NCBI GenBank assembly: GCA_022843175.1
Contig: JALHOE010000074.1
Span: 1 to 38,151, forward strand
From: Deltaproteobacteria bacterium
GTDB lineage: Bacteria; Myxococcota_A; Polyangia; Polyangiales; JADJMO01
DNA length: 38,151 nt
Direction: 5' to 3'
Position numbers and translations under genes: made by a program. Below the pieces are notes generated by a model, which did no database searches, was not told the DNA's origin, and saw nothing but the letters and a program-made list of their open reading frames with translations. Below are positions 1 through 4,170 of the stretch, in pieces. The first letter of the stretch is position 1. Every line of letters begins with the position of its first letter.

Positions 1-269
1 CGCGGCGCCGCCGACGCGGCCGAGCTCGCGGCCGGCGCGGGCGCCGGGGGTTCGGGCTGCTTGTCGAAGAAGCGCGTCTTGATGAGATACGCCGCGAGCA
101 GGAACAGGGCGGTGTCGAACACCCAGTGGTACCACTGGCGGCCCTTCTTCTTCTTCGGCTTCTCCGAGGTGTCTTCGCTCGCCTCGCTGCGCTCCTTTGC
201 ACGGCGCGCCATGACGCGCTCGGCGCGCTCACGCATCGCGACGACCTCGGGATCCTCCGGCTCGGTCAT
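1..269 (-). CDS. Truncated single-pass membrane protein of unknown function
   Basis: An open frame on the minus strand starts at the ATG at 269-267 and runs off the left edge, giving 89 visible residues. It opens with a charged, Glu/Arg-rich segment (start MTEPEDPEV), then a Lys-rich patch (KPKKKKGRQW), then one hydrophobic segment (FDTALFLLAAYLI, about residues 49-61), followed by a Pro/Ala-rich linker (EPPAPAPA) that continues past the edge. This predicts a cytoplasmic N-terminus, one membrane helix and a longer extracytoplasmic domain that is not visible. It lies 23 bases downstream of the EEP lipoprotein gene on the same strand and may share its transcript. I do not recognise the family; the missing C-terminal domain would decide it. 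Confidence 0.6.
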   Translation of the reverse strand, partial: MTEPEDPEVVAMRERAERVMARRAKERSEASEDTSEKPKKKKGRQWYHWVFDTALFLLAAYLIKTRFFDKQPEPPAPAPAASSAASAAP

Positions 270-292
270 GGGCGGGGAGTGTAACCCCCTTT

Positions 293-1480
293 CTACTCGT
301 AGAAGAACAAGGCGCGCCGAGCGCGGTGCTCCGAGTAGTTGCTCGTGACGTCGTTGAAGCCGTGGGTGCCGATCCGGTTCGAGAGCTGATCGCTCCCGGT
401 GACGGCTTTGTCGGCCGCGTCTCCGTCGGCGTAGGTGATCAGGTTGTAGCCCGCGGTGCGCGCCGGCTTACCGCCCTGGATGCGCCCGAACACAAAGTCG
501 ATGTTGCTCTCGGCGCTGACGCAGGCCTTGTCGCCCTTGCACTTGTCGTAGACCGGGTCGGCGAAGCCGAGGTTCGGGTGACTCGCGCACATCTCGCCGC
601 CGAGGCCCGCGACCATGACGCGATACCAGCACTTGTAGTCGCCGCCCGAGTCGAACGCCGGGCCGTTGAAGTCGCCGCCAACCAGCTGCAGCCCGACGTC
701 CGGCATCGGCGCGTGCGCGCTCGCGCCGGTCTTCTGTCCGTCGACCATCTCCAGCATGTTGACCAGCGAGCAGTCCATCCAGGTCCAGTGGCGCAGGCTC
801 GCCGCGGCGACCTCCTTCTTGGCGAGGGTGTCCTCGAGCCGGACGCGAATCGTCTCGTAGCCGGAGTGCGGCGCGCGCGTCGCGCAGGTGTGGCCGCCCA
901 TGCCGTCGCGATCTCCGAACGGAAACCAGCTCTCGTGACTGAGGTATCGGAACCGCGCCGCGCGCCAGATCACGCCGGTGGTGACCGTCGGTCGCGGCGT
1001 CACCTCGCCCTGGAACCGCTGATCGGTCGGGTTGTTCTGCGCGACCACGCCGGCGTACTTCTCCCCGAGGCGCGCGCTCATGAAGTCGGCGAGCTCGTCG
1101 AGGCGCTTCTTGTCGGTCATCTGCTGCACGAGGAGGACGTCGACGTTGCGCGCGTCGCGCTCCATCACGTGGACGAGGTCCTTCCAGTCGAAGATCATGT
1201 TCTCGATGTTGACCGAGTACACGAGGACGCTGCTCGCCGAGGCCGGCGCGTCGGCGGGCGTGTCGAGCGGCGGCGCGTCGGCGGGGGGCGCTGCGCTGTC
1301 GGGCGCAACCGAGTCGTCGACCGCCACGCCCGTGTCCACGACGCTCGTCGTGTCCGCGCCGGAGTCCTCTGCGGTGACGTTTGGCTCTGCGGCTTGACCG
1401 CCACACCCGACGAGCAAGCCCAGCAACAGGAATCGGTGCACGGAGCCAGCGTAGCTGAATGCAGCGCGGCGGCTCGACAC
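293..1480 (-). CDS. Secreted lipoprotein with endonuclease/exonuclease/phosphatase (EEP) fold
   Basis: A lipoprotein signal ends in LLVGC (Cys26), followed by an Asp/Ala/Pro-rich linker to about residue 82 and an EEP-like domain to the end (395 aa). EEP landmarks are visible: SVNIENM (Asn91), GGDFNGP (Asp270, Asn272), SNIDFVF (Asp328) and a C-terminal SEH (Glu384-His385). The usual metal-binding Glu of the LQE motif is Gln here (VQQM, residues 118-121), and the usual SDH is SEH, so classic Mg-dependent phosphodiesterase activity is uncertain. Several Cys residues in the second half may form disulfides, in keeping with an outer or secreted location. The start at 1480 is nearly back-to-back with the divergent gene; a GTG at 1441 would give a shorter, tidier signal peptide. 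Substrate unknown. Confidence 0.75.
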   Translation of the reverse strand: MSSRRAAFSYAGSVHRFLLLGLLVGCGGQAAEPNVTAEDSGADTTSVVDTGVAVDDSVAPDSAAPPADAPPLDTPADAPASASSVLVYSVNIENMIFDWKDLVHVMERDARNVDVLLVQQMTDKKRLDELADFMSARLGEKYAGVVAQNNPTDQRFQGEVTPRPTVTTGVIWRAARFRYLSHESWFPFGDRDGMGGHTCATRAPHSGYETIRVRLEDTLAKKEVAAASLRHWTWMDCSLVNMLEMVDGQKTGASAHAPMPDVGLQLVGGDFNGPAFDSGGDYKCWYRVMVAGLGGEMCASHPNLGFADPVYDKCKGDKACVSAESNIDFVFGRIQGGKPARTAGYNLITYADGDAADKAVTGSDQLSNRIGTHGFNDVTSNYSEHRARRALFFYE

Positions 1481-1491
1481 CGGACTGAGTG

Positions 1492-1956
1492 ATGCGCACC
1501 GCTCTTGCCGCCGCGATCCTCCTCCTCGTCTCCACCGCCTCCGCCGAGACCTCGATGCGCTACCGCGTACTCGGCCCCTGCCGCGTGCGCACCACCGAGG
1601 GCCCCGCGTACGACAAGACGGTTCAGGCAGAGCTCGACGTCGCGATCTCCGGCCCCGACGACGCGGTGCGACTCGAGCTGAGTAGCAAGCGCAACGCGAC
1701 GTGCGTGCTCCGCGGAAAGCGCGCCGGCGCGACGATCACGCTGCTCCCCGGCCAGAAGTGCCCGCAGAAAGTGGACGACGGCCTCGCGCACGGCGAGCTC
1801 ATCGGAGTGCTGCAGAGCGGGCGGGCGACGAGCAACGGTGCCTCGGTGGCGGTGGTCACCAACTGGAAGCTCGAGGGCGACGTGAAGGTGTTGTTCCGCA
1901 CCATCCACATGAAGGGCACCCTCGACACCAACCTCGTGGGCAAGCGCCGCGACTGA
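1492..1956 (+). CDS. Small secreted protein of unknown function
   Basis: Starting at the ATG at 1492, the product is 154 aa with a clear Sec signal peptide (MRTALAAAILLLVSTASA, cleavage likely before ET). A GTG directly upstream at 1489 is an alternative start. The mature part (about 136 aa) has three Cys residues and alternating polar/hydrophobic strands (for example YRVLGPCRVRTT and VAVVTNWKLEGDVKV), which suggests a beta-rich periplasmic protein. It is divergent from the EEP lipoprotein with almost no intergenic space, and ends 2 bases before the stop of the convergent CLC-F gene. I do not recognise a family and assign no function. Confidence 0.7.
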   Translation: MRTALAAAILLLVSTASAETSMRYRVLGPCRVRTTEGPAYDKTVQAELDVAISGPDDAVRLELSSKRNATCVLRGKRAGATITLLPGQKCPQKVDDGLAHGELIGVLQSGRATSNGASVAVVTNWKLEGDVKVLFRTIHMKGTLDTNLVGKRRD

Positions 1957-1958
1957 CG

Positions 1959-3245
1959 TCAGTCGGGCCCGGTGTCGGGCTCCGCCGGTCGATCCGGCTC
2001 GCGGAAGTCGCGGAGGGCGATCGCCTCGGGCAACGGCTCGCCGCCCTGCTTTCGGCGCGTGAGCCGCTGCGCGGGGTAGATGCCGCGGTGGCCAGAGAGC
2101 AGGTAGGCGACGACGCAGACGATCACCACGTGGGGAAACGCCGGCGCGCCGAGCAGCTCCACGGCCATGACCGAGAGCGCGAGCGGAGTGTTCGCCGCGG
2201 CCGCGAACACCGCGGCGAGCCCGACGCCGGCGCCGAGCGCGATCGGCAAACCCAGCAAGCGCGCCGCGACGCTGCCGAGCGCGGCGCCGACGAAGAACAA
2301 CGGGGTGACCTCGCCGCCGAGAAACCCGCTGCTCAGCGTGATGGCGGTGAACACCAGCTTGGCCGCGAACGCATACCAGACGAGGTTCGGATCGGAGAAC
2401 GCGCGCACGATCGTCGGTACGCCGAGGCCGAGGTAGTCGTCGGAGCCGACCAGCTTCCATACGACGAGCAGCGCGCAGCCGCCGACGAACATGCGGATCG
2501 GCAGGCGCGGGATGCGTAGCTCGAGCGTGCGCTTGAGGCGATGGGTGAGCTCGACGAACGCGATCGTCGCGAGCGCCATCGCGACGCCGATGACCAGCAG
2601 CTTGCCGAACACCAGCGGCGTGAGGTCGACGACGGGCGCCGCGGGATACGCCGTGTGCACCACGCCGAGGCTCCTCGTTACGTAGTCGCCCACCAGCGAG
2701 GCGATCAGCGCGGGGACGAGCGCCTCGTACTCCATGCGCCCGATCGAGACGACCTCGAGCCCGAAGATCGCGCCGGCCACCGGCGTCCCGAACACCGAGC
2801 CGAAGCCGCCCGCGATGCCGGCGGCGAGGAGCTGCCGGCGCGCCTCGCGGCGGATCCGAAAGCGATGGGCGATCTCGTCGGCGAGGCTCGCGCCCATCTG
2901 CACCGCCGTGCCCTCGCGGCCGGCGCTGCCGCCGAAGAGGTGGGTGAGCACGGTGCCGAGCAGCACCATCGGCGCCATGCGCAGCGGGATCTGCTCGCTC
3001 TGCTCGTGGATGGTGTCGATGATGAGGTTGTTGCCGCCCTTGATCGGCTGGCCCCACCGCTCGTACACCAGTCCGAGCAACAGGCCGGCGAGCGGCAGCG
3101 CGTAGACGATGACGACATGGGTCTCGCGAAACCGCGTGGCGCGATCGAGCAAGAGGAGGAAGGCGCCCGAGGCGAGCCCGCAGGCGATGCCCGCGGCGGC
3201 TCCGAGCCACGTCCACTGAACCAGTGCTTTTGCGCGATCCCTCAT
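1959..3245 (-). CDS. CLC-F type fluoride/proton antiporter
   Basis: A 428-aa polytopic membrane protein of the CLC family. The gating-glutamate motif is present as GREGTAVQMG (Glu111), and the second anion-pathway motif as SSGFLGGEVTP. The usual chloride-selective GSGIP is replaced by KGGNNLII (Asn72-Asn73). Asn or Met in place of the chloride-coordinating Ser is the hallmark of the fluoride-specific CLC-F clade, so this is most likely a fluoride exporter that swaps F- for H+ across the inner membrane. The fluoride riboswitch in its leader supports this independently. The start is taken as the ATG at 3245-3243 because a Shine-Dalgarno-like AGGTG lies about 7 bases upstream, inside the riboswitch expression platform; a GTG at 3254 is in frame but overlaps that site. 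A plain chloride channel is the less likely alternative. Confidence 0.9.
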   Translation of the reverse strand: MRDRAKALVQWTWLGAAAGIACGLASGAFLLLLDRATRFRETHVVIVYALPLAGLLLGLVYERWGQPIKGGNNLIIDTIHEQSEQIPLRMAPMVLLGTVLTHLFGGSAGREGTAVQMGASLADEIAHRFRIRREARRQLLAAGIAGGFGSVFGTPVAGAIFGLEVVSIGRMEYEALVPALIASLVGDYVTRSLGVVHTAYPAAPVVDLTPLVFGKLLVIGVAMALATIAFVELTHRLKRTLELRIPRLPIRMFVGGCALLVVWKLVGSDDYLGLGVPTIVRAFSDPNLVWYAFAAKLVFTAITLSSGFLGGEVTPLFFVGAALGSVAARLLGLPIALGAGVGLAAVFAAAANTPLALSVMAVELLGAPAFPHVVIVCVVAYLLSGHRGIYPAQRLTRRKQGGEPLPEAIALRDFREPDRPAEPDTGPD

Positions 3246-3284
3246 CGTGAGCACCTACGGAGCCGTGAATGGCACTGCCGTAGG
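3246..3284 (-). promoter_or_regulatory. Riboswitch expression platform sequestering the ribosome binding site
   Basis: The 3' end of the aptamer (CCUACGG, minus strand 3284-3278) is perfectly complementary to CCGUAGG (3260-3254), with a further GUG/CAC pairing inside the loop. The downstream arm contains the likely ribosome binding site (GUAGGUG) for the ATG at 3245. Without fluoride this hairpin would hide the ribosome site; with fluoride the CUCCUAC strand is held in the aptamer and the site is freed. This predicts translational ON control. There is no U-tract, which argues against a transcription-termination mechanism. Confidence 0.75.
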
Positions 3285-3335
3285 AGTCATTGGCTCCCCC
3301 GCCGGGGGTCGCGGTTATCGGCGGACTCCACCGCC
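3280..3335 (-). promoter_or_regulatory. Fluoride riboswitch aptamer (crcB motif)
   Basis: Read on the minus strand, this 56-nt segment has the crcB-motif layout: a 5-bp stem GGCGG/CCGCC closing the loop UGGAGU, then GAUAACC, a hairpin with CCCCC/GGGGG arms, and the conserved 3' strand CCAAUGACUCCUAC. The loop GGAGU can pair with ACUCC near the 3' end, which is the pseudoknot that forms the fluoride pocket. It sits in the leader of the CLC-F gene, a classic target of this riboswitch class. Called from conserved primary sequence and pairing; a covariance model search was not possible. Confidence 0.9.
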
Positions 3336-3396
3336 ATCGCGATCATGCTCGCGAACGGTGGCGTCGCCGTCAAGGTGTGACGAGAATGCGCTCCCC

Positions 3397-4170
3397 ATGG
3401 CCGGCCCCGACGACCCGTCGATGATCCGCGAGACGCTCGATTCGCTGAGCGAGGGGCTCCAGATCCTCTCGCGCGAGTGGCGCTACCTCTACGTCAACGC
3501 CGCGACGGCGCGACAGGGCCGCAAGTCGCCCGCCGAGCTGCTCGGGAAGACGATGTTCGAGTGCTACCCGGGCATCGAGCGCACGCCGCTGTTCGCCACG
3601 CTCGAACGCTGCCTCGCGCGGAGCGAGACGACCACGCTCGAGACCGAGTTCACCTTCGAGGACGGCAGCCGCGCGTGGTTCGAGCTGCGCATCCAGCCGT
3701 GCCCCGCCGGGCTCGTGGTCGTCTCGCTCGACATGAGCGAGCGCAAGGGCGTCGAGCTCAAGCTGCGCGACGCCTATCACCAGGCGCTCCACGATCTGAT
3801 CACGCCGGTGATCCGCGTGCACCAGGGCGTGTTGCTGGTGCCGGTCATCGGCGCGCTCGACCACTTGCGCGCGCGTCAGATGACCGAGTCCGTCCTCTCC
3901 CGCAGCATCGAGGAGCGCGCCAAGGCCGTGATCTTCGACATCGCCGGCGTCCCCGAGGTCGACACCGCGGTCGCGAAGCACCTCCTCGAGGCCGCCGCGA
4001 TGATCCGCCTCCTCGGCGCGCGCACCGTGCTGACCGGCCTCTCGCCGTCCGCGGCGAAGACGCTGGTGCACCTCGGGCTCGACCTCTCCGCGATGGAGAC
4101 CACCGGCGAGCTCGCCGAGGGCATCGAGCTCGCACTCGGCACCGTAGGCAAGAAGATCGTCGGTCGTTAG
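3397..4170 (+). CDS. PAS-STAS regulator, RsbR/stressosome-like
   Basis: A 257-aa soluble protein. Residues about 10-120 form a PAS-like sensor domain (SEGLQILSREWRYLYVNAAT, then a FELRIQP strand and SLDMSERK exit). Residues about 138-250 form a STAS domain with the DIAGVPEVDT motif. Thr190 in this motif lines up with the phosphorylatable Thr/Ser of RsbR-type stressosome proteins and anti-sigma factor antagonists. The VHQGVLLVPVIG start of the STAS domain is typical of RsbR C-termini. The ATG at 3397 is chosen because it begins just before the PAS domain; extending further would overlap the fluoride riboswitch leader on the other strand. No kinase, phosphatase or sigma factor partner is adjacent. 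It converges with the glutaredoxin-CcdA gene, 3 bases between stops. Confidence 0.8.
   Translation: MAGPDDPSMIRETLDSLSEGLQILSREWRYLYVNAATARQGRKSPAELLGKTMFECYPGIERTPLFATLERCLARSETTTLETEFTFEDGSRAWFELRIQPCPAGLVVVSLDMSERKGVELKLRDAYHQALHDLITPVIRVHQGVLLVPVIGALDHLRARQMTESVLSRSIEERAKAVIFDIAGVPEVDTAVAKHLLEAAAMIRLLGARTVLTGLSPSAAKTLVHLGLDLSAMETTGELAEGIELALGTVGKKIVGR

Follow-up and report, generated by a model that had tools for sequence, protein, structure and literature searches.

Can the leader of a CLC-type transporter gene be read as a fluoride riboswitch, and does it control a fluoride exporter by hiding the ribosome binding site? An earlier note on this DNA had proposed such an arrangement within the window, by which we mean the whole stretch of 38,151 nt that was analyzed. 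The coordinates and strand that it gave for the riboswitch and the CLC gene were right, and the locus comprises the following features.

3274-3344, minus strand: fluoride riboswitch aptamer, RF01734 (34.6 bits, gathering threshold 34, E 4.5e-6, model positions 1-64 in full)
3320-3335, minus strand: P1 hairpin GGCG/CGCC, whose loop holds the pseudoknot 5' strand GGAGU (3329-3325) (model alignment, sequence)
3293-3312, minus strand: P3 stem region GC-GA-CCCC / GGGG-GA-GC (model alignment, fold)
3283-3287, minus strand: pseudoknot 3' strand ACUCC (model alignment, sequence)
3331 and 3292, minus strand: aptamer positions 6 (G) and 38 (C), putative G-C form of a long-range pair (covariation)
3278-3284, minus strand: strand 1, CCUACGG, the 3' edge of the aptamer, including U48 at 3282 and common to the predicted off-state hairpin
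3254-3260, minus strand: strand 2, CCGUAGG, the putative anti-aptamer strand, holding the 5' part of the Shine-Dalgarno sequence (pairing, energetics, covariation)
3252-3256, minus strand: Shine-Dalgarno sequence AGGUG, complementary to CACCU of the 16S 3' end (accessibility)
1959-3245, minus strand: gene assigned to the CLC-F type of fluoride/proton antiporters (bit scores, tree, PF00654)

Organization of the locus

The CLC gene, 428 codons long, runs from the ATG at 3245 to 1959, and a spacer of 28 nt separates its start from the end of the aptamer at 3274. An in-frame GTG at 3254 was also considered as the start; it lies inside the Shine-Dalgarno sequence and is less likely, and the ATG is preferred. 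Back to back with the leader, the plus strand carries a PAS-STAS regulator (3247-4170), weakly YtvA/RsbR-like, whose true start probably lies within the listed open reading frame. Because this neighbor is divergent, the leader can serve the CLC gene only. No sigma-70 promoter was recognized by a scan of a kind that is not informative in this lineage.

The aptamer and its variation

The covariance-model search that the earlier note had suggested returned a significant match to the fluoride riboswitch family at 3344-3274, 34.6 bits against a cut-off of 34 (E 4.5e-6), and this is the sole RF01734 match above threshold in the 9.75-Mb genome assembly. The crcB-motif core is present as described, including the pseudoknot between the loop and the 3' strand, in which GGAGU (3329-3325) pairs with ACUCC (3287-3283), and P1, P3 and the pseudoknot are all intact. 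The conserved bases A40 (3290), U41 (3289), G42 (3288) and U48 (3282) are found at the aligned positions, in a numbering that we take to follow the T. petrophila fluoride riboswitch. The stability of the whole-leader fold was not unusual (z -0.48) and was dropped as evidence.

The score clears the cut-off only narrowly, since three positions in this clade deviate from the RF01734 consensus: nt 6 is G for A, nt 38 is C for U, and nt 39 also differs, being A in the window aptamer and G in the consensus. Positions 6 and 38 presumably correspond to the long-range reversed Watson-Crick pair of the T. petrophila structure, which is A-U in the consensus. Across 22 aptamers of the phylum, the two positions covary (15 G-C, 6 A-U and 1 A-C), with counts that are phylogenetically clustered. 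Such a joint change is what a working aptamer would be expected to show, and it suggests that the long-range pair is present in the window in a changed form, G6-C38; this putative G-C version is clade-wide.

The distribution of the element was examined in 61 genomes of the order that carry a close CLC-F. A pattern search found the aptamer at 14 loci. Another 40 had no match reaching the Rfam cut-off, and these include the two homologues nearest to the window protein, at 76% identity. Upstream of CLC-F in L029 and L030, the closest homologues, from the same family and the same genus, no fluoride riboswitch was found at the cut-off or at E values up to 1; regulation is therefore not essential to the gene. 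The riboswitch is absent from most CLC-F genes of the order.

The genome also holds a second, decayed copy of the fluoride riboswitch (L206, about 1500-1591, minus strand; contig C1:122321-122411). This copy is 74% identical to the window leader and reaches just 15 bits with Rfam, and its 3' strand, AUACUCGUACGG, has lost one conserved base and changed another. It retains the GGCGCCGUAGG strand and precedes a Cys-rich open reading frame, with no exporter gene adjoining.

The window aptamer could itself be decayed, G6 and C38 having abolished binding and left the leader as a relic. Its low Rfam score, the clearly decayed copy in the same genome and the absence of the element from the nearest CLC-F homologues would fit such a history. 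However, G6 occurs with C38 in 15 of the 22 aptamers and A6 with U38 in 6, as expected of a working pair, and, in contrast to the decayed copy, the window aptamer preserves nt 40-42 (AUG), U48 and the pseudoknot. We regard decay as very unlikely.

The CLC-F protein

The window CLC scored 252.5 bits against the structurally solved CLC-F fluoride/proton antiporter of Enterococcus casseliflavus (Eca; 6d0j) and 33.6 bits against the chloride transporter ClcA (1kpl). In place of the GSGIP of chloride CLCs it carries GNNL, with GREGT around the external glutamate and GGEVTPL around a second one, and the latter two motifs align with Glu-ex and the extra near-filter glutamate of Eca CLC-F (E118 and E318). 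The substitution of GGNN for GSGIP had thus been read correctly, and in the alignment Met79 of Eca CLC-F stands opposite the first N of GNNL. The Eca equivalents M79, E118 and E318 have been described, and Met79 corresponds to the chloride-coordinating Ser107 of CLC-ec1 (PMC12035849).

A tree of 33 rows placed Eca CLC-F, 13 CLC-F proteins of myxobacteria and the window protein in one group at 100/100, separate from ClcA and from the chloride-type CLCs, among them the second CLC encoded by this genome. A long-branch warning concerns single rows such as Eca and ClcA, and the split is plain from bit scores and motifs too. Tree placement, the other computational check that had been proposed, thus sets the protein with CLC-F and apart from chloride CLCs. 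That the gene encodes a chloride or broad-anion transporter standing behind the leader by chance might be argued from its Pfam name, which is only Voltage_CLC (PF00654), and from NCBIfam chloride models, which match it below their cut-offs. Against this stand the 252 versus 34 bits for CLC-F and ClcA, the GNNL and GGEVTPL motifs and the 100/100 clade with Eca CLC-F, and we hold a chance association of this kind to be extremely improbable. The gene is accordingly classed, by its sequence, as a putative CLC-F fluoride/proton antiporter, with transport as expected of the known family.

The RNA and protein evidence, claimed to agree independently, does so, as both the aptamer match and the CLC-F assignment are confirmed. 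No CrcB/Fluc was detectable in the assembly, which is 95% complete; of the two bacterial exporter families known, this CLC-F is therefore the sole member found there.

Predicted competition for the Shine-Dalgarno sequence

Strand 1, CCUACGG (3284-3278), and strand 2, CCGUAGG (3260-3254), form seven Watson-Crick pairs with no mismatch, and their hairpin alone has a free energy of -13.6 kcal/mol; the perfect complementarity claimed between the aptamer 3' strand and the segment holding the ribosome site is therefore real. Strand 2 runs into and overlaps the Shine-Dalgarno sequence AGGUG (3256-3252), with 8 nt from AGG to the AUG at 3245. Pairing of the aptamer strand and of the Shine-Dalgarno strand is predicted to be mutually exclusive. 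In folding calculations, opening the Shine-Dalgarno sequence cost 8.3 kcal/mol with strand 1 free and 2.0 kcal/mol with strand 1 held by the aptamer, a difference of 6.3 kcal/mol (ddG) that was equalled in 1 of 60 dinucleotide shuffles of the spacer. Three fragment lengths gave the same direction, with differences of 6.8, 4.1 and 2.0 kcal/mol; in the longest, the opening costs were 5.0 and 3.0, just 2 kcal/mol apart. As the effect varies among fragments, its size depends on the amount of coding sequence included.

A pattern scan of 84,980 species genomes yielded 84 loci with 85 aptamers of the window variant. Downstream of 23 of the 85 lies a perfect complement of at least 8 nt to the aptamer 3' strand, compared with about 1 expected in shuffles. 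At nt 49, which was omitted from the search, an A is opposed by U in 33 of 37 leaders and a G by either C or U, 11 times each, in 22 of 23, some of these loci being near-duplicates. Because the partner of nt 49 follows the A/G change, the competing strand seems to be retained for its pairing; it is conserved and covaries in about 60 related leaders. Three arrangements of strand 2 are seen: it precedes a T-run (L134, L135, L160 and L162), overlaps the Shine-Dalgarno sequence (the window and L152), or sits 40-60 nt ahead of the start.

The hiding of the ribosome site put forward in the earlier note is supported by the folding energetics, by the way in which the competing strand is conserved and covaries among relatives, and by the lack of any terminator-like site or intrinsic terminator in the window. 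We computed the aptamer match, the exclusive pairings and their energetics, the conservation and covariation of the competing strand and the CLC-F clade membership, and the best explanation, in our view very probably the right one, is a translational ON-type fluoride riboswitch in which fluoride induces translation of the exporter through release of the Shine-Dalgarno sequence. Without fluoride, CCUACGG would leave the pseudoknot and pair with CCGUAGG, the Shine-Dalgarno sequence of the CLC-F gene would be buried, and little antiporter would be made. With fluoride, the aptamer would retain strand 1 in the pseudoknot and the linchpin pair, the Shine-Dalgarno sequence would be exposed, and the antiporter, once translated, would pump fluoride out. 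Fluoride binding, the direction of switching in vivo and transport are features that we infer from the known families.

The aptamer might act on transcription instead of, or besides, translation, a hidden ribosome site leaving the mRNA untranslated and open to Rho-dependent termination. Rho is often used by high-GC genomes, and the T-run that sometimes follows strand 2 in related leaders (e.g., L134, L135, L160 and L162) makes a terminator-like arrangement, which suggests that the hairpin is used for termination elsewhere. In the window, however, strand 2 is followed by UGCUCACGAUG, without a T-run, no terminator-like site was found, and strand 2 overlaps the Shine-Dalgarno sequence. Action on transcription is thus unlikely here, and translational control by release of the Shine-Dalgarno sequence is the preferred reading.

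Possible relay-type leaders in relatives

In leaders with strand 2 located 40-60 nt before the start, strand 2 (e.g., GGCGCCGUAGG) can pair with a third strand, CCUCCGGCGCC, which can also pair with the Shine-Dalgarno sequence. Complements of at least 6 nt between strands 2 and 3 occur in 17 of 31 leaders, compared with about 6 expected, and compensatory versions of the two strands were seen (GCGCCG/CGGCGC and GCACCG/CGGUGC). Only in 12 of 29 leaders, one of them that of the window, did strand 1 alter the predicted exposure of the Shine-Dalgarno sequence more than it did in shuffles; a four-strand relay was for this reason not accepted as a general rule for the relatives and is kept as a hypothesis with some support.

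In all seven leaders checked (L016, L020, L031, L041, L052, L057 and L058, of which the L058 stretch analyzed ends before GREGT), a first open reading frame of 10-123 codons has its stop overlapping the CLC-F start (ATGA/GTGA). These small frames are mutually unlike except for those of L052 and L057. Their stops over the CLC-F start probably couple the switch to the exporter through translation.

Like the relay-type leader L024/L032, the window leader contains CAGUGCCAU, but it has GGCUCCGUAGG where L024/L032 has GGCGCCGUAGG and is missing the rest; it therefore looks like a shortened form. We tentatively suggest, while doubting it somewhat, that many myxobacterial fluoride riboswitches are four-strand translational relays (aptamer : anti-aptamer : anti-Shine-Dalgarno : Shine-Dalgarno), often opening a tiny upstream open reading frame with its stop over the CLC-F start and so coupling translation. 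The window leader would then descend from such a relay by shortening, its anti-aptamer strand having itself turned into the Shine-Dalgarno sequence.

Other genes behind fluoride aptamers

Of 102 loci with a fluoride aptamer, 13, spread over several phyla or classes, have a dynamin-like GTPase gene within about 160-1020 nt behind it (L005, L006, L007, L021, L100, L116, L121, L123, L134, L138, L154, L160 and L166). The dynamin-like gene is sometimes the first gene and sometimes follows a Fluc gene (L138 and L154), and the four proteins scanned matched Dynamin_N with E values of 1e-22 to 1e-30. The motif of these GTPases is G-Q/H-FKRGKS. Among the papers searched, none named both the fluoride riboswitch and dynamin. 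These genes possibly encode a fluoride-regulated membrane GTPase. In L004, a fluoride aptamer that scores a strong 57 bits is immediately followed by a gene for a Na+/H+ exchanger (217-1419, minus strand; PF00999, E 3e-26).

Comparison with known systems

Riboswitch-controlled CLC-F antiporters are known (Stockbridge et al. 2012, PNAS, as cited in PMC11077948), and Pseudomonas syringae and Burkholderia pseudomallei have accepted fluoride riboswitches of the translational type (PMC13273304). In studied fluoride riboswitches, the 3' pseudoknot strand is common to the aptamer and the expression-platform hairpin, and in well-studied transcriptional members, opening of U48, the partner in the linchpin pair A40-U48, permits strand exchange (PMC11077080). 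The window riboswitch belongs to the same aptamer family as the translational crcB riboswitches of P. syringae and B. pseudomallei and would likewise act on translation, not intrinsic termination (PMC13273304), again through competing partners of the pseudoknot 3' strand. Judged at the level of the aptamer consensus, it differs in having G6-C38 and A39 in place of A6-U38 and G39.

With riboswitch-controlled CLC-Fs and Eca CLC-F (6D0J), the window protein shares the family, Glu-ex in GREG, the second glutamate in GGEVTPL, the loss of the chloride-coordinating serine and the linkage to a fluoride riboswitch; unlike Eca CLC-F, it has Asn (GNNL) in place of Met79 (GMNL) and GREGT in place of GREGV. 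Other Myxococcota CLC-F leaders (L024/L032, L120, L122, L164, Minicystis rosea L117 and Polyangium fumosum L097) have the same aptamer variant and the same strand 2 (GCCGUAGG or ACCGUAGG), but they are about 30 nt or more longer, with strand 2 at 40-60 nt before the first start and third-strand pairing possible. Several of them have a small open reading frame over the CLC-F start, whereas the window lacks the longer leader, the third strand and the small frame. Among the papers searched, none named both the fluoride riboswitch and Myxococc-.

Both halves of the locus are of known kinds, a riboswitch-controlled CLC-F and a translational fluoride riboswitch, and the arrangement, documented elsewhere, gains here a further example with a few features peculiar to the clade. 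Though ordinary, the case is clean, the evidence from the RNA and from the protein pointing the same way. As no Fluc/CrcB channel was found in the genome, fluoride export in this organism probably rests on a single regulated antiporter. The relatives form a natural series of expression platforms behind one aptamer, from direct hiding of the Shine-Dalgarno sequence to relay-like and terminator-like arrangements, and this series would let a laboratory ask how one type of switch becomes another.
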